Source: an uncultured Candidatus Cenarchaeum sp. (GTDB taxonomy: Archaea; Thermoproteota; Nitrososphaeria; Nitrososphaerales; Nitrosopumilaceae). From it: 64,000 nt of DNA. The notes beneath the pieces were generated by a model, which saw only the letters and a program-made list of their open reading frames with translations, had not been told where the DNA came from and did no database searches. The translations under genes were made by a program, and so were the position numbers. Shown in pieces: positions 1 to 32,247 of the stretch; positions within the stretch are counted from its first letter, which is position 1; each line of letters opens with the position of its first letter. Location of the stretch: contig OY282369.1 in the NCBI GenBank assembly GCA_958295735.1, forward strand, positions 248,001 to 312,000, written 5' to 3'.

Positions 1-143
1 GCCCGCCCGATCAAGCGGCCGGGGCGGTCCGCGGGGGCGCGCGTGCGCGGTCCCGCGCCCCGCGGCCGGGCGGCCCGGAATGCGGCGGGTCCCCGGGCCC
101 GCGGCCGGGGGCGGCGGGGTTCCGGCGGGGGCCGCGTGACGGC

Positions 144-23704: not shown

Positions 23705-24508
23705 TCATGCCCGCTGCTCCCGGTCCCCCTCCCCGCACTCGCAGTTCCCGGCGGCCTTGGCGGCGCCGGTGGCGACCACGGCGCCGTCCCGGTCCAGTAT
23801 GGCGGCCCCCGCCCGCCCGGACGGGGAGGTCGATCTCTCGGAGCTTGCCGCCGCGTGGAACATGCCGTACTCGTCCGCGGTCGGCCGGATGGACGTGTCC
23901 CCGAACACCAGCCTGATGAACCGGTCGACGTGCGGCCGCGCCTCCACCCCGTCGGCGGGAGGGACGAAATAGTCGCCCATTTTGAAGGCCGCGTCCAGGT
24001 CGTACCCCCCCTCCGTCCCGCCGGCGCGCCGGTCCCGCCGGACGAGGGCCTCCGCGCGCGGCCCGAGCCTCGCCACGAGCGCCGCGAGTTGCCCCTCGGA
24101 CATGCGCGCGGAGATCAGCAGGAGGCGTTCCCCGAAGGTCTTCCTGAGCAGCTCCACCTCCGCGGGGTCCCGCACCGTCATCATGACGTAGGCGTGGCCG
24201 CCGCGCGGCATCTCGCCCGAGCCCGTCGCGCCCTTCCTCAAGCGCCGTACCTCGGCGATGCCCAAGGCGGCCACGGCGCCCGCGCCCTCCTTGGCGCGCA
24301 GGGCGTCCGCGCGGTCCAGCGCCGACTCCAGCCAGGCGCCGCCCCCCGGCCCCCCCGGCCCCTGGACGGCCCCGTCGAGGGATATCGGCTCCGAGGTGAA
24401 CCCGAACCGCCCGAGGGACTCCGCGACGTGCCCGTATATGGTGTCCAGATCCGCCCCGAGCGCCCCGATCAGCCCGACGACCAGCTCCGGCCTGTACATC
24501 CCGCCCAC
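23705..24508 (-). pseudogene. AvcD-like dCTP deaminase, N-terminal half (truncated)
   Basis: A 267-residue open frame aligning with the first half of the intact AvcD-like protein: RPELVVGLIGALGADL (degenerate P-loop-like start), RLLLISARMSEGQL, FIRLVFGDTSIRPTADEYGMFHAAA and GAAILDRDGAVVATG. It then stops just inside the deaminase domain, before the HAE and PCxxC zinc motifs, with an unrelated Cys/Glu tail. It cannot be a deaminase. A TATA-like CTATAATC (24531-24538) still sits 25 bp from the GTG at 24508, so the fragment could be expressed. Its missing end is replaced by the IS630 fragment. Confidence 0.75.
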
Positions 24509-24591
24509 GGCGCGGGGGCGCCGCGGCTGGCTATAATCATTTGTTTCCGGGATTGCGCATTCCCGGTAGTGCGTGGGGTCACGTGCCTGCT

Positions 24592-24665
24592 GGCCGCAGG
24601 CGTGAAAACGACTACGTTGATCCGCGTTCACGCCTGCGGGGCGGGGGTCGCCGACCCCGTGCCGG
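24592..24665 (+). repeat. Dispersed repeat family R1, single copy
   Basis: GGCGTGAAAACGACTACG followed by TTGATCCGCGTTCACGCC and a GGGGGTCGCCGACCCCG hairpin. The same pattern appears inverted at 35340-35408 and in tandem at 62548-62830. Confidence 0.75.
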
Positions 24666-26530: not shown

Positions 26531-26578
26531 CTTATGAAAGCGAATAGTTATAACTGCTCGATATCAAACGCCGGTATC

Positions 26579-28048
26579 TTGGACGACAAACTCAGGCCGG
26601 AACTGGTCGTCGGGGTGATCGGCGCGCTGGGGACGGACATGGGCCGCGTCCGCGATGCGATCGCCGTGGCGCTGGCCCCGGTCAAGTACAGAACGGAAGA
26701 CATAGATCTCGGCGCCGCGGTGTCGGAGGTCGGGGGCCTGGGAACGCCCGCGGGGGGCGGCACCGAGCACGACAGGATCTCGTCCAGGATGGAGCGCGGC
26801 AACGAGCTGGAACGCGCCGCGGGGCCGGGCGCCGCCGCGTCCCTGGCGGTGGCCATGATGCAGAGGTCCCGCGAGCGCGTCGCGGGATCCGCGGAAAAGC
26901 CGGCCGCCGGCCGCGCCTGCGTGCTCGGGCCGATCACGCGCCCCAGCGAGATCAAGGTGCTTCGCGGCGCGTACGGCGGGCGGCTCCTGCTCGTCTCCGC
27001 GTACTCGCCGAGGGACGCGAGGATCAAGGAGCTGGAGAAAACGGTGGGGGATCGGGCCGGGCTCCTCGTCGACAGGGACTACCACGAGGAGGGCGGCGCC
27101 GGGCAGTCGGTGAGGGATGCGTTCCAGGTTGCGGACTTTTTCTTGGTCGTGTCGGATCTGAAATCCGTCCGGCGCCACACCGGCCGGTTCTTCGAGCTGG
27201 TATTCGGCAACACGTTCCACACCCCGACCTTGGAGGAGTCGGGCATGTTCCACGCGTTTGCGGCCGCCCGCCTGTCCTCGTCCATGTCCCGGCAGGTAGG
27301 GGTGGCCGTACAGGACGCGAGGGGGAATCTGCTCGCCACCGGCGTCAACGAGGTGCCCAAGGCGGGAGGCGGCGTCTACGCTGCCGGGGACGAGCCCGAC
27401 TGGCGCGAGTTCAGGCGCGGGTACGACTCGAACCGGAGGGAGCGCGACGCGATGCTCGCGGACGCGCTCTCGCGCCTCGGGCGGGCCGGCCTGCTCTCGG
27501 CGGAATGCGGGGGCATGAGCGGCGAGGAGATCGCGGCCATGGTGCGGCAAACCGCCGATCTGTCGGGGATGAAGATCATGGGCGTGACCGAGTACGGCAG
27601 GGAGGCGCACGCCGAGATGGACGCCCTGGCGGGCGCCGCCAGGCGCGGCGTGCCGGTATGCGGCTGCATCATGTACTGCACCACGTTCCCCTGCCACGTC
27701 TGCGCGAAGCTCATCGTGGATGCAGGCATACGGTTGCTCGTATTCGTGGAGACGTACGAAAAGAGCCACGCCGGGAAGCTGTTCGCAGACTCGATCAGCG
27801 TGGAAAGCCCGCAGGAGGGCAAGGTGCACTTCAAGCCGTTCATGGGCATCGCGCCCAAGCGCTACATAGACCTCTTCACCATGGGCAGGCGCAAGGACGC
27901 GTCCGGCAGGAAGGCGGAATGGAATGCCGCCGAGGCCGTCCCGAGGCTGCTCCCCTACGGGGAGTACCTGAAGAATGAGGATGCGGTCGTGAAACGCCTG
28001 CACAAAGCAATGGCCGAAAACGGCCTCTCGCCGAACTATGCCGAATGA
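26579..28048 (+). CDS. Anti-phage dCTP/dCMP deaminase, AvcD-like
   Basis: A 489-residue two-domain protein. The N-terminal domain starts RPELVVGVIGALGTDM, a P-loop-kinase-like fold with degenerate Walker A, and includes RLLLVSAYSPRDARI and FFELVFGNTFHTPTLEESGMFHAFAA. The C-terminal cytidine-deaminase domain has HAEMDAL (His344, catalytic Glu346) and FPCHVC (Cys372, Cys375), the complete zinc site. This is the architecture of AvcD/DCD proteins, which deaminate dC nucleotides during phage infection and starve replication. The TTG at 26579 is chosen because AGTTATAAC (26546-26554) lies 28 bp upstream; an ATG at 26534 is the alternative. Its end overlaps a small ORF. Confidence 0.85.
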   Translation: MDDKLRPELVVGVIGALGTDMGRVRDAIAVALAPVKYRTEDIDLGAAVSEVGGLGTPAGGGTEHDRISSRMERGNELERAAGPGAAASLAVAMMQRSRERVAGSAEKPAAGRACVLGPITRPSEIKVLRGAYGGRLLLVSAYSPRDARIKELEKTVGDRAGLLVDRDYHEEGGAGQSVRDAFQVADFFLVVSDLKSVRRHTGRFFELVFGNTFHTPTLEESGMFHAFAAARLSSSMSRQVGVAVQDARGNLLATGVNEVPKAGGGVYAAGDEPDWREFRRGYDSNRRERDAMLADALSRLGRAGLLSAECGGMSGEEIAAMVRQTADLSGMKIMGVTEYGREAHAEMDALAGAARRGVPVCGCIMYCTTFPCHVCAKLIVDAGIRLLVFVETYEKSHAGKLFADSISVESPQEGKVHFKPFMGIAPKRYIDLFTMGRRKDASGRKAEWNAAEAVPRLLPYGEYLKNEDAVVKRLHKAMAENGLSPNYAE

Positions 28049-28052
28049 GAAG

Positions 28053-28060
28053 GCTTATAC
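28053..28060 (+). promoter_or_regulatory. Promoter of the first 43-residue ORF
   Basis: GCTTATAC, immediately after the AvcD stop, lies 27 bp before the GTG at 28083. The same box and spacing recur at 30435-30442 and 31101-31108 before the other two copies. Confidence 0.65.
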
Positions 28061-28082
28061 CGCAACCCGACCAGCACTAACC

Positions 28083-28214
28083 GTGGAAGAAAAACTTGAG
28101 AAAGGCTGGCTGAAGGAACAGATGGAAAAGTCGGTAGCGCGCTTTGACAAGCTGCCCAAGTGGAAGCAGGACATGCTCCTTGCCCGGCTAGAGTACGATC
28201 TGCGGGAAGAGTAG
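28083..28214 (+). CDS. 43-residue charged protein, copy 1, downstream of avcD
   Basis: A small acidic/basic helical protein (EEKLEKGWLKEQMEKSVARF, then LPKWKQDMLLARLEYDLREE). An in-frame ATG at 28038 overlaps the avcD end and would give 58 residues, but the TATA box 27 bp upstream favours a leaderless GTG. Three paralogues in 3 kb keep open frames while the adjoining AvcD pieces decay, implying selection or very recent duplication. Position next to an AvcD effector suggests a partner, antitoxin or regulator; in bacteria that role is played by the AvcI RNA. No homologue is recognised. Confidence 0.65.
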   Translation: MEEKLEKGWLKEQMEKSVARFDKLPKWKQDMLLARLEYDLREE

Positions 28215-28277
28215 GCAGCCGGGCGCGCCGCTTCCCGCCCGCTGATTCCCGGAAACGGGCGGCGCGGGATCGCGGCG

Positions 28278-28738
28278 GGCCGCCGATCTGTCGGGGACGG
28301 GATCGCGGGCGCGGCCGGGCACGGGAGGGAAGCGCGCGCCGGGACGGACGGGATCGCGGGCGCGGCGTGCCGGCAAGGGACCGCGCCGCGCCCGCGCGAA
28401 GCATGCGGCGGCCGCCGGCATGCGGCGGCCCGCCTTCGTCGGGACGCGCGGGAACAGCCGCGCAGGGGAGCCGTCCGCCGGCTCGATCGGCGCGGAAAGC
28501 CCCCGGGAGGGCAGGGCGCGCTTCAAGCCGTTCGCGGGCATCGCGCCCAAGCGCTACATAGACCTCTTCACCATGGGCAGGCGCAAGGACGCGGCCGGCA
28601 GGAAAGCAGAATGGAATGCCGCCGAGTCCGTCCCGAGGCCGCTCCCCCACGTGGAGTACCTGGAGAAGGAGGATGCGGTCGTGGACCGCCTGCGCAAAGC
28701 AATGGCCGAAAACGGCCTCTCGCCGAACCATGCCGAAT
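28278..28738 (+). pseudogene. AvcD-like C-terminal fragment, unit B
   Basis: The unit begins at CGCCGATCTGTCGGGG, which also occurs inside the intact gene at 27553. Degraded sequence follows, then a clean open frame from SPREGRARFKPFAGIAPKRY to MAENGLSPNHAE. It lacks HAE/PCxxC. The stop codon is interrupted by the inserted element at 28739, so the frame now reads about nine codons into the element. It is nearly identical to unit C. Confidence 0.75.
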
Positions 28739-28789
28739 TGTGTTGTATGAAAATCATGTCACACTAACTCCGGGCCACGAGTGGGCAGT

Positions 28790-29313
28790 TTTGCCAGTCT
28801 GTGCCAGCCGAAGCGGATGGCCGGCTTCCTGATCGGCAAGCAGATCGAATACGCAAGAAGGGGCGCAAGGCGTCCTGGACGGCCCGGGAGATCAGGGTGA
28901 CCCCGGGGCACGCGCGAAGGCCGCTCGCGGAGTGCGGGCGGGCCTCCCGCGGTTCGCCGGCAGGCCGGGGCCCCCGCGCAGATCAGCAAGCGGGATGCCG
29001 TGCCGGTGGCGCGGCAGCGCGGGAAGGCGCATGCGGGGGGTTTTTCCAGGCCATGCTGGCCGCAAGGCGGACGGCCGGCTTCCTGACCGACAGGCAGATC
29101 GAACACGCGGCAAGGCGACACGGGAAGGGGCGCAAGGCGTCCGGGACGGCCCGGGAGATCGAGGCCCCGGGGCACGCGCGAAGGCCGCTCGCGGAGTGCG
29201 GGCGGGCGGGCGGGCGGGCCTCCCGCGGTTCGCCGGCAGGCCGGGGCCCCCGCGCAGATCAGCAAGCGGGATGCCGTGCCGGTGGCGCGGCAGCGCGGGA
29301 AGGCGCATGCGGG
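28790..29313 (+). repeat. Internal ~260-bp tandem duplication inside the element
   Basis: Roughly 28790-29036 and 29052-29313 share long stretches (for example CCGGCTTCCTGA and GATCAGCAAGCGGGATGCCG), at a period of 263-276 bp. The reading frames of the old left-arm gene are broken in both. Confidence 0.75.
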
Positions 29314-29559
29314 CGTCCGGCGCACCGCCGGTGCGCTGGGGGTCGATCACGCTACAAGCTGCGACAAGGCCCGCAGGATCGCGAGGGACGGCGGACCGGC
29401 GGCGCCGTCCCAGGCCGAGCCGGGGCGCGGGAGACGTGTCCGGTTTGAGAGGCGGCACTCCGGCGCCATGCAGCGCGCGGGCCGGCGCTAGACGAAGGAT
29501 TCGCGCTTCGAGAGCCCCTGCCTGCGCTGCCGACCGGTAAAAATTTCGCCGCGAATGGC

Positions 29560-30126
29560 GGTGTTCAGTTAGCAGTTTGGCCCCGAAGGGCGAAGTTGTT
29601 AGTGAACGGCGGCACGGCCGCGCGTCCCGGCGATTCGTCCCGATGCGCGGCGGGGGCCGGCACGTTGGGGGATGCGGCCCCGGACGGCGCGGAGGCCGCG
29701 CCGCGCGCGGCCGCGAAGCAGTTCGGCGCGCCCGCGACGATGCTGCCCGGCGGCGGCTCGCGCTTCGCGGGCCGGGGAGGCCGCAAAAAGGGCGGCAGCG
29801 GGGCGCCCCGCGGATCGTGGCGGCCGGCCGCATCCGGGAGCGGACTGCCGGCCGGCGGCACTGATCTGACAAACGGCCGCCCCTGCCGCCCGCGGACCAT
29901 CGGCAAGCTGGGGAGGTCCTTCGTGACCGCGGAGGCGGAGATCGGGCACCGCGAAAGCCTGTCGGAATTCGTCGCGTTTTACAGCGGACGAGGGCTTCGC
30001 TGCTCGCCGGACGCCGCCAGCTTGGAGACACCGCCCGGGGCGTTCTCCGCCGGGGAGGCCGCGGGAGCGATCAAGAAGAACAACCCTCGCCGGACGGAGG
30101 AGGACGCGAGCGAGCAGGCGACGTGA
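29560..30126 (+). pseudogene. Integrase-core (rve-type) transposase remnant
   Basis: The end of the frame is well preserved: IGKLGRSFVTAEAEIGHR, SLSEFVAFYSGRGLRC, ETPPGAFSAGEAAGAIKKNN. This is the C-terminal part of an rve/DDE transposase (canonical pattern NGKLERxxGT...FxxFYNxxRxHxSL...ETPxxAF). Upstream FAGRGGRKKGG resembles the region before the catalytic Glu, but the acidic triad is not readable. A homologous, more decayed copy is on the minus strand at 40980-41590. Confidence 0.65.
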
Positions 30127-30464
30127 TTCCATGCGACGCGGCTGCGCGGGGGCCCCGACCCGTCGGCGAACCGCTGGAGGCCCGCCCGCCCGCCCGCCCG
30201 CCCGCACTCCGCAAGCGGCCTTCGCGCGTGCCTCGGGCTCACCCTGAACTCCCGGGCCGTCCCGGACGCCATGCGCCCCTTCCTGCGCAGCCTTGTTGCG
30301 TATTCGATCTGCTTGCCGATCAGAAGCTCGCCGGCGGCTCTGCGCTGGCATAGCCTAGCAAAACCGCCCGCCGGCCGCCCAAAGTTAGTGTGACCTAATT
30401 TTCATACAACACACGAACCATGCCGAATGAGAAGGCTTATACCGCAGCCCGACCAGCACTAACC

Positions 30465-30596
30465 GTGGAAGAAAAACTTGAGAAAGGCTGGTTGAAGGAA
30501 CAGATGGAAAAGTCGGTAGCGCGCTTTGACAAGCTGCCCAAGTGGGAACAGGACATGCTCCTTGCCCGGCTAGAGTACGATCTGCGGGAAGAGTAG
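30465..30596 (+). CDS. 43-residue charged protein, copy 2
   Basis: Differs from copy 1 by only about three bases (LPKWEQDM instead of LPKWKQDM). It has the same upstream TATA box (30435-30442) and GTG start. It sits directly after the right end of the inserted element. Confidence 0.65.
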   Translation: MEEKLEKGWLKEQMEKSVARFDKLPKWEQDMLLARLEYDLREE

Positions 30597-30670
30597 GCAG
30601 CCGGGCGCGCCGCTTCCCGCCCGCTGATTCCCGGAAACGGGCGTGGAGGCGCGGTTAGGAGCGCGGCGGG

Positions 30671-31096
30671 CCGCCGATCTGTCGGGGACGGGATCGCGGG
30701 CGCGGCGCGGAGGCTCGCGCCTGCAAGGGACCGGCCCCGTACCGCGCACGTTCCCCCGCCGCGCCCGCGCGAAGCATGCGGCGGCCCGCCTTCGTCGGGA
30801 CGCGCGGGAACAGCCGCGCAGGGGAGCCGTCCGCCGGCTCGATCGGCGCGGAAAGCCCCCGGGAGGGCAGGGCGCGCTTCAAGCCGTTCGCGGGCATCGC
30901 GCCCAAGCGCTACATAGACCTCTTCACCATGGGCAGGCGCAAGGACGCGGCCGGCAGGAAAGCAGAATGGAATGCCGCCGAGTCCGTCCCGAGGCCGCTC
31001 CCCCACGTGGAGTACCTGGAGAAGGAGGATGCGGTCGTGGACCGCCTGCGCAAAGCAATGGCCGAAAACGGCCTCTCGCCGAACCATGCCGAATGA
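30671..31096 (+). pseudogene. AvcD-like C-terminal fragment, unit C
   Basis: The same structure as unit B: a start at CGCCGATCTGTCGGGG, a degraded segment, then an open frame from MRRPAFVGTRGN through RFKPFAGIAPKRYIDLF to LSPNHAE and a TGA that overlaps the ATG at 31086. It lacks the deaminase active site. Confidence 0.75.
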
Positions 31097-31130
31097 GAAG
31101 GCTTATACCGCAACCCGACCAGCACGTACC

Positions 31131-31262
31131 GTGATGGAAAAATTCGAGAAGGGCGAGTTGGGGAAACAGATAGAAGAGTCGGCAGCGCGTTTTGAGAAGC
31201 TGCCCAAGTGGGAACAGGACATGCTCCTTGCCCGGCTAGAGTACGATCTGCGGGAAGAGTAG
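31131..31262 (+). CDS. 43-residue charged protein, copy 3 (diverged)
   Basis: A paralogue with the N-terminal half changed (MEKFEKGELGKQIEESAARF) and the C-terminal half identical to copy 2 (LPKWEQDMLLARLEYDLREE). Promoter box at 31101-31108, start GTG 31131 or ATG 31134. The concentrated N-terminal divergence could reflect a changed partner. Confidence 0.65.
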   Translation: MMEKFEKGELGKQIEESAARFEKLPKWEQDMLLARLEYDLREE

Positions 31263-31336: not shown

Positions 31337-31352
31337 CCGCCGATCTGTCGGG
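31337..31352 (+). repeat. Start of a fourth AvcD-fragment unit, cut by an element
   Basis: CCGCCGATCTGTCGGG repeats the first bases of units B and C and is then interrupted by element sequence, so the tandem array once continued. Confidence 0.6.
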
Positions 31353-31590
31353 CGTGTTGTGTGAAAAATAGGTCGCACCATAGGTTGCAGGCGGGCGGTT
31401 TTGCCAGGCCATGCCAGCCGAAGCGGATGGCCGGCTTTCCGATCGGCAAGCGGATCGAATACGCAAGAAGTGGGGCCGGAGGGACGCAAGACATCATGGT
31501 CGGCCCGGGAGATCAAGTGGGCCCCGAGGCACGCGCAAAGGCCGCTCGCGGAGTACGGGCGGACGGGCGAGCCGCCCACGATCTGCCGGC
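31353..31590 (+). mobile_element. Left-end remnant of the 31-bp-TIR element
   Basis: CGTGTTGTGTGAAAAATAGG and the following about 200 bp (for example GGCCGGCTTTCCGATCGGCA) match the left arm of the element at 28739. No right end is found, and the next sequence is a different inverted-repeat element. Confidence 0.65.
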
Positions 31591-31593
31591 CCA

Positions 31594-32247
31594 GTATATC
31601 CTAGGTGTAGGTTTTGAGCGCGGCTCCGGCGCGGCTCCGGCGCGGCCCCGGCACCTTGCACGCACTCGTCCTCCCCCCCGTCCCGCTACCCGCCGCGCCT
31701 CCTGACGGCTGTGGCCGGCCCGCGCGCCGGGAGTTCCGGGCCGATTCAGTTTTTTTTTTTTTTTTTTTTGCGCCCGCACTTCTTCCATCCGCCGCCCCGG
31801 CGCCGGACGCGGGCAGGCGCCGCCCCGGCGCGCCCGGCGGGTCCCGCCGCCTGCGGCCGGGGCCGGGGCCTGCGGCCGCCCCGTCCCGGAGCCGGGCCGA
31901 TGCCTCGGATGTGTTCCGCGCGCCGCCCGCGCCGTGCGCTATTTTCCGCGATCGCCGACGAACGATCCCAGGGATTCCACGATGCGCTCCGCGGACTGCC
32001 CATGGTGGGCTTCTCGCCGCCACGCGCGCGTAGTCGGCAGTCCCGCACGCCGCGTTGTGCCTCTTCCCCGTTCCGATGCACAGCATCTCGAGCAGCCTGC
32101 ACGCGGCCTTCGGCGCGAGGAAACCGTCATGCCGGTTCGCGGGCATGCCGCCTGGCCTCGCCGTCGCGGAAATCAAAATGCGCGAATGCGTAGATCTTTG
32201 CGCAGCAGCGCCGGGGCCGAGGCCGAAGCCCGCGCCGGGGATCCGCC
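31594..32247 (-). mobile_element. MITE-like element, interrupted copy
   Basis: Its ends and two blocks (31594-31690 and 32055-32247) match, in reverse orientation, the 243-bp element at 47139-47381. About 365 bp of unrelated DNA, including a run of 20 T (31750-31769), separates the blocks. Both copies can encode a peptide with FLAPKAACRL, so part may once have been coding. Confidence 0.6.

Follow-up and report, generated by a model that had tools for sequence, protein, structure and literature searches.

Within a 64,000-nucleotide stretch of an uncultured Candidatus Cenarchaeum sp. (contig OY282369.1, positions 248,001 to 312,000), referred to here as the window, an avcD gene encoding an AvcD-type dCTP/dCMP deaminase is followed on the same strand by three copies of a small open reading frame (ORF), termed the companion. 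The genome consists of a single contig of 3.17 Mb, and the window has a GC content of 72%. The features of the locus, in window coordinates, are as follows.

26548-26554, + strand: TATA box of avcD (TTATAAC), read from the sequence
26579-28048, + strand: avcD, AvcD-type dCTP/dCMP deaminase, TTG start, 489 amino acids (Pfam, PADLOC, alignment)
28054-28061, + strand: TATA element CTTATACC of companion ORF 1, directly after the avcD stop codon
28083-28214, + strand: companion ORF 1, 43 amino acids, GTG start, alternative in-frame ATG at 28038 (profile matches in bacteria and archaea, two-helix model)
28418-28738, + strand: avcD tail remnant of unit 2, no active site, 86% identity to avcD
28739-30413, no strand given: insertion sequence bounded by inverted repeats TGTGTTGTATGAAAATNANGTCACAC; target duplication at 28724-28738 and 30414-30428
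30465-30596, + strand: companion ORF 2, GTG start, 43 amino acids, TATA element intact at 30436-30443
30774-31093, + strand: avcD tail remnant of unit 3 (comparison with avcD)
31131-31262, + strand: companion ORF 3 (GTG/ATG), first half a variant related to copy b of locus L026 (unit comparison)
31353-31600, no strand given: terminal part of another copy of the insertion element, which closes the array

The window avcD is intact, with conserved HAE and PCHxC zinc motifs (alignment A2), the latter at about 27692-27706. Its product matched Pfam dCMP_cyt_deam_1 (1.1e-13) and, over residues 5 to 480, the PADLOC dCTPase model (1.2e-117), which indicates a full-length architecture with the N-terminal domain. 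The sequence AATAGTTATAAC of the avcD TATA box was also found upstream of several avcD paralogues. An earlier, sequence-only reading of this DNA had described an intact AvcD-like gene followed by a small ORF with its own TATA box, deaminase repeats lacking the active site, and three open small ORFs at a constant distance from their TATA boxes, and all of these were borne out. The repeated avcD segment starts at 27726, just past the PCHxC motif, and for this reason the repeats lack the active site. Each of the three companion ORFs has its TATA element 27 nt ahead of the start. This spacing is consistent with a leaderless mRNA. The alternative ATG of ORF 1 lies in frame 45 nt upstream of the GTG, giving an 11-bp overlap with the avcD stop region.

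Two further units of avcD tail plus small ORF are present, as that reading had proposed, although in unit 2 an element of 1,675 bp, bearing terminal inverted repeats and flanked by a 15-bp target duplication (CGAACCATGCCGAAT), parts the tail from its small ORF. The supposed start of a fourth unit was not recovered; the repeat ends at 31352 after unit 3, and the end of the same element follows. The 26-bp inverted repeats of this insertion element family account for 14 ends in the genome, several of them as facing pairs. Copies 2 and 3 of the companion differ at 19 bases, all confined to 84 bp that open slightly ahead of the start codon and cover the first half of the ORF, and copy 3 therefore has, as noted previously, a changed N-terminal half and an identical C-terminal half. 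The ∼150 bp after this variable part are identical between the two copies; their 323-bp tails differ at 2 bases and are identical over the 318 nt compared. Such a pattern is the signature of a brief gene-conversion exchange whose partner resembled L026 copy b. A run of about 20 T residues lies just past the array (about 31750-31769) in a region of 72% GC.

A set of 4,725 small ORFs, each at most 1.5 kb from one of 105 other avcD genes in GTDB genomes and viral contigs, was searched with a profile built from the companion copies of this genome alone. At a threshold of E < 0.5, 28 of the 29 matches fell among the 284 same-strand ORFs directly downstream of avcD, and one lay elsewhere. After iteration, 62 loci, or about 68 when longer predicted ORFs were included (∼65%), carried a companion, and these were distributed across archaea and many bacterial phyla. 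A conserved ORF of 40 to 60 residues behind other archaeal avcD genes, suggested as a check in the sequence-only reading, occurs in Nitrosocosmicus, Nitrosopumilus D6, and G010, with a weak candidate in one further archaeon (L063). Many bacteria have the same companion behind avcD as well, E. coli O157, Vibrio, Pseudomonas, and Photorhabdus among them, and the idea of a new, archaeal arrangement was not supported; judged from the profile matches, the downstream companion is common to most avcD genes examined, bacterial and archaeal alike, and not specific to archaea. One family member is WP_000021256.1, a hypothetical protein of E. coli O157 encoded directly behind a dCTP deaminase gene.

Companion proteins are ∼36 to 70 amino acids long and share a core, [W/L]PxWK; in the cross-phylum alignment the W is found in every row and the P in nearly all. 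The ratio of nonsynonymous to synonymous change (pN/pS) was 0.24 in Pseudomonas, 0.42 in Photorhabdus, 0.15 in Rhodocyclales, and 0.16 in Nitrospira, overall 0.15 to 0.44 across five bacterial groups, and 1.26 in a multi-copy Acidimicrobiia pair. Where bacteria carry a single copy, the companion is thus under purifying selection. A chance reading frame was ruled out by the cross-phylum profile test together with the codon selection seen in bacteria. On this comparative evidence, the small ORF represents a real gene family accompanying AvcD. The protein was modeled as a two-helix hairpin with a mean predicted local distance difference test (pLDDT) score of 91. Searches of Pfam, NCBIfam, and PADLOC returned no family past its threshold, and among solved structures only designed repeat proteins and chance matches were found. 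No fusions of AvcD with the companion were found, and tblastn with bacterial queries gave no match in plasmid or phage records. A protein companion of AvcD was not reported in the open-access literature searched, and an earlier mention in the primary papers on dCTP deaminase defense is possible.

Linkage to avcD was close. Nearly all credible companion matches in 21 further genomes lay beside avcD or an avcD fragment, the exceptions being an intact orphan (L235) in an Acidimicrobiia genome with several copies and a match in L233 that proved false. Across 300 related genomes no credible companion match was located away from avcD; weak matches in G234, G249, G003, and G148, distant from any avcD, were dismissed as chance. 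Companion distances tracked avcD distances (Mantel r, 0.75; p, 0.0005), and on an avcD tree (123 rows, FastTree, many open forks) the presence of the companion required 11 changes, compared with 33 in shuffles.

The avcD genes lacking a downstream companion were mainly in other branches of this tree, with other small ORFs. One such class, in Vibrio and on E. coli and Klebsiella plasmids (L248 to L251, L154, L155, L131, and L132), has a same-strand ORF ending in K[LI]xW or similar, 13 to 130 bp before avcD; it forms a different branch, and this ORF was found in none of the 69 downstream-class loci. The ORF stands where the AvcI RNA is described (PMC9455884). In a 21-member alphaproteobacterial and proviral AvcD branch (including L123, L124, L103, L129, L133, L068, L069, and L128), a divergent ORF of 48 to 80 amino acids was identified 60 to 160 bp upstream in 18 of 20 testable loci, versus 8 of 69 downstream-class loci (p, 8e−11). 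Some of these divergent ORFs (KLEPGWLxRDV) resemble the downstream companion. An uncultured Acidimicrobiia bin (L071, L079, L222, and L235) encodes AvcD nested among the paralogues of this archaeon and carries four companion ORFs, one with no avcD nearby; these copies likely represent lateral transfer followed by a second expansion, or misbinned archaeal contigs.

The genome of the archaeon itself harbors 12 full-length avcD genes, 46 to 98% identical to that of the window. No avcD was identified in a genus-mate genome, and among 300 relatives avcD otherwise occurs as a single gene, in three genomes; the nearest archaeal relatives of the gene are in Nitrosopumilus and Nitrosocosmicus, which points to Nitrososphaeria as the class of the host. 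Of 36 companion ORFs genome-wide, 33 are sound and 3 decayed, in arrays of one to five sound copies. Every full-length avcD has one to five companions on its 3′ side, adjacent in nine loci and 1.9 to 3.7 kb away in L017, L024, and L025, and orphan companions also occur (L020 here, and L235 in the Acidimicrobiia genome). Of 24 aligned units, all start with ATG or GTG and 23 retain the TATA box at an unchanged distance. Upstream of the L017 and L025 companions the DNA is unrelated, and a TATA box is present nonetheless. Units of L018, L022, L023, and L029 show 0 to 16 differences per 120 bases in the companion, while their upstream flanks have diverged by 30 to 60%. The promoter of the companion lies at the end of avcD, and each duplicated unit consequently carries an avcD tail.

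In recent duplicates, variation frequently runs higher in the companion than in its flanks, with 67 of 600 versus 54 of 1,302 sites differing in five unit pairs chosen for near-identical flanks (window 2-3, L022 b-c, L022 d-e, L026 b-c, and L027 b-c); L018 b-c is a counter-example. This variability hints at selection for variants, and it could also reflect exchange tracts. In the L022 array two variant types alternate. Hypervariability of the first helix was considered as a general rule and rejected, as it is seen in the window and L026 and not overall (Fisher p, 0.63). In L019 (positions 3213-2974, − strand), a companion has an N-terminal extension with a duplicated DHPGDDEYWSAP peptide, and a related HDDYWAAP stretch is found in the L024 copies.

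Other AvcD-derived and repeated sequences were observed. A truncated, divergent N-terminal half of AvcD (37 to 39% identical) without the catalytic part lies at 23705-24540 on the − strand of the window, and more AvcD fragments are located at G000:C1:244396-245092. A dispersed palindromic element of ∼100 bp, resembling a miniature inverted-repeat transposable element, with ends GTATGAGGTCA and TGACCTCGTAC and core GGCGTGAAAACGCCTTCGCTGATC, is present at 24599, 62571, and 62669 of the window; it gave 90 matches in G000 and none for a reversed control. It is also found upstream of avcD in L018 and of the companions in L025, and in degenerate form in L017. The core had been a candidate regulatory element common to avcD and the companion, and was rejected once it was recognized as part of this repeat. 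Another dispersed repeat (GTGTAGACTTACGTCC...GGACGTAAGTCT) lies inside or beside the palindromic element in L200, L205, L209, and L212.

Taken together, we lean toward the view that the locus comprises an AvcD-type deaminase defense gene and a conserved small protein that is a putative antitoxin or inhibitor. Small size, adjacency, an own promoter, copies outnumbering the avcD genes, the presence of orphans, and mutual exclusivity with the small ORFs at the AvcI position all point to a protein restraining AvcD, most likely as its antitoxin or inhibitor. The partnership with AvcD put forward in the sequence-only reading thus holds as far as a conserved companion gene, for which antitoxin, inhibitor, and adaptor are still the right candidates, and fails in its restriction to archaea. 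We infer that the companion is transcribed and translated in vivo and would bind AvcD, keeping it inactive in the manner of a protein antitoxin. Infection, or loss of a labile inhibitor, could then release AvcD, and the freed enzyme would deaminate dCTP/dCMP, thereby starving viral DNA synthesis. The archaeon studied here has undergone an expansion of avcD to 12 genes, and its companions now form tandem arrays; these would increase companion dosage and, by exchange between units, carry sequence variants that could suit the diverged AvcD paralogues. A broader proposal is offered tentatively and falls short of an even chance: that AvcDs generally have a small protein regulator in one of three positions (downstream with [W/L]PxWK, upstream with a K[LI]xW end, or divergent upstream), the downstream one being a protein antitoxin, which here would form tandem, recombining variant arrays for 12 AvcD paralogues.

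Several observations weigh against an inhibitor. Some copies have decayed (L020 and the last units of L022, L027, and L028), and inside this genome nonsynonymous and synonymous changes in the companion occur at about equal rates on average, from which composition bias, diversifying selection, and relaxed constraint cannot be separated. Equal rates were what the sequence-only reading had named as the sign of a chance reading frame, but the comparison is nondiagnostic here; full-length avcD genes by the same method mostly give ratios of ∼0.5 to 1.0, so that within-genome rates cannot serve as proof of coding. Purifying selection on the companion is clear in bacteria of ordinary composition. Neutralization, binding, and expression of the companion are predictions, and a protein inhibitor is drawn by analogy, the known inhibitor in bacterial relatives of another AvcD class being an RNA, AvcI (PMC10511110). 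An activator or sensor would be just as plausible for a small protein encoded next to avcD.

Amplification may be a neutral by-product of a high-GC genome rich in repeats and transposons, the companion being a real gene whose number of copies serves no purpose. Insertion elements and dispersed palindromic repeats are indeed abundant and terminal units have decayed, but the companion and its TATA box were kept in 33 of 36 copies while avcD tails rotted; this account, compatible with the other readings, appears rather unlikely. The companion might instead be a protein activator, adaptor, or infection sensor whose variant arrays broaden the triggers recognized. The excess of differences in companions over flanks and the alternating variants of L022 would suit such a role, whereas the L018 b-c pair runs counter to it and the five supporting pairs were chosen for near-identical flanks; moreover, an own promoter, a copy excess over avcD, and the existence of orphans are easier to reconcile with an inhibitor than with a needed subunit, and we regard this role as unlikely.

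An AvcI-like RNA as the active element, with the reading frame incidental, seems very doubtful. Published work on V. cholerae, V. parahaemolyticus, and E. coli describes AvcI as an avcD-adjacent noncoding RNA (PMC10511110, PMC9455884), but it is placed upstream and the companion element downstream, and conservation at the protein level across phyla with purifying selection on codons argues for a protein. Array families do not share conserved sequence 3′ of the ORF, and a conserved RNA fold there was rejected, as no element was common to them; an Rfam search of the window from 23 to 33 kb gave no match, although an RNA outside the known families may exist there. Least probable is a role for the AvcD tails as functional decoys or as C-terminal regulators produced on their own, for which RpnS, the inhibitor of RpnL, is a precedent (PMC10327210). 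Long open frames are still present in the tails of the window and L026, but the tails show no start signal of their own, their changes lack synonymous bias (nonsynonymous rate, 0.152; synonymous rate, 0.123), and in L018, L022, L023, and L027 they have decayed beyond recognition while the companion and its TATA box persist with unchanged spacing. The decoy suggestion of the sequence-only reading is therefore improbable, and the tails are best explained as hitch-hikers.

Catalogues list AvcD either as a single-gene defense system or as the toxin of a pair whose antitoxin is an RNA. If most AvcD relatives are indeed followed by a conserved protein companion, the annotation of the system and the view of its control would change, and the pair is testable in culturable bacteria. 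The archaeal arrays would likewise be a natural record of the amplification and variation of a toxin regulator.

Among known families, PHROG phrog_38465 matched several bacterial companions (2.7e−13, 9.1e−6, and 0.0013) and covers part of the bacterial members; the window protein differs in having no match, its best being phrog_3236 at 0.055, and the function of the family is unassigned. The Rpn system (RpnL/RpnS) similarly has C-terminal pieces of an antiphage enzyme separate from the full-length gene, whereas the AvcD tails carry no detected start signal and have decayed in most arrays. Type II toxin-antitoxin systems with a downstream antitoxin share the order of a toxin-like enzyme gene and then a gene for a small helical protein, the two frequently overlapping or closely spaced, as well as the existence of orphan antitoxin-like copies. 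As in those systems, a small protein gene is linked to avcD, and its product appears to be under selection (pN/pS and cross-phylum alignment). In contrast to them, the companion has no visible DNA-binding domain, and in this genome each copy has its own promoter. A parallel in enzyme is AvcID, a type III toxin-antitoxin system with the same deaminase architecture, the same zinc motifs, and a small regulatory element beside avcD. The published AvcI inhibitor is, however, a noncoding RNA located upstream of avcD, whereas in this archaeon the element downstream of avcD is a conserved protein-coding gene in tandem copies, and 12 avcD genes coexist where the PADLOC dCTPase model describes a single gene.

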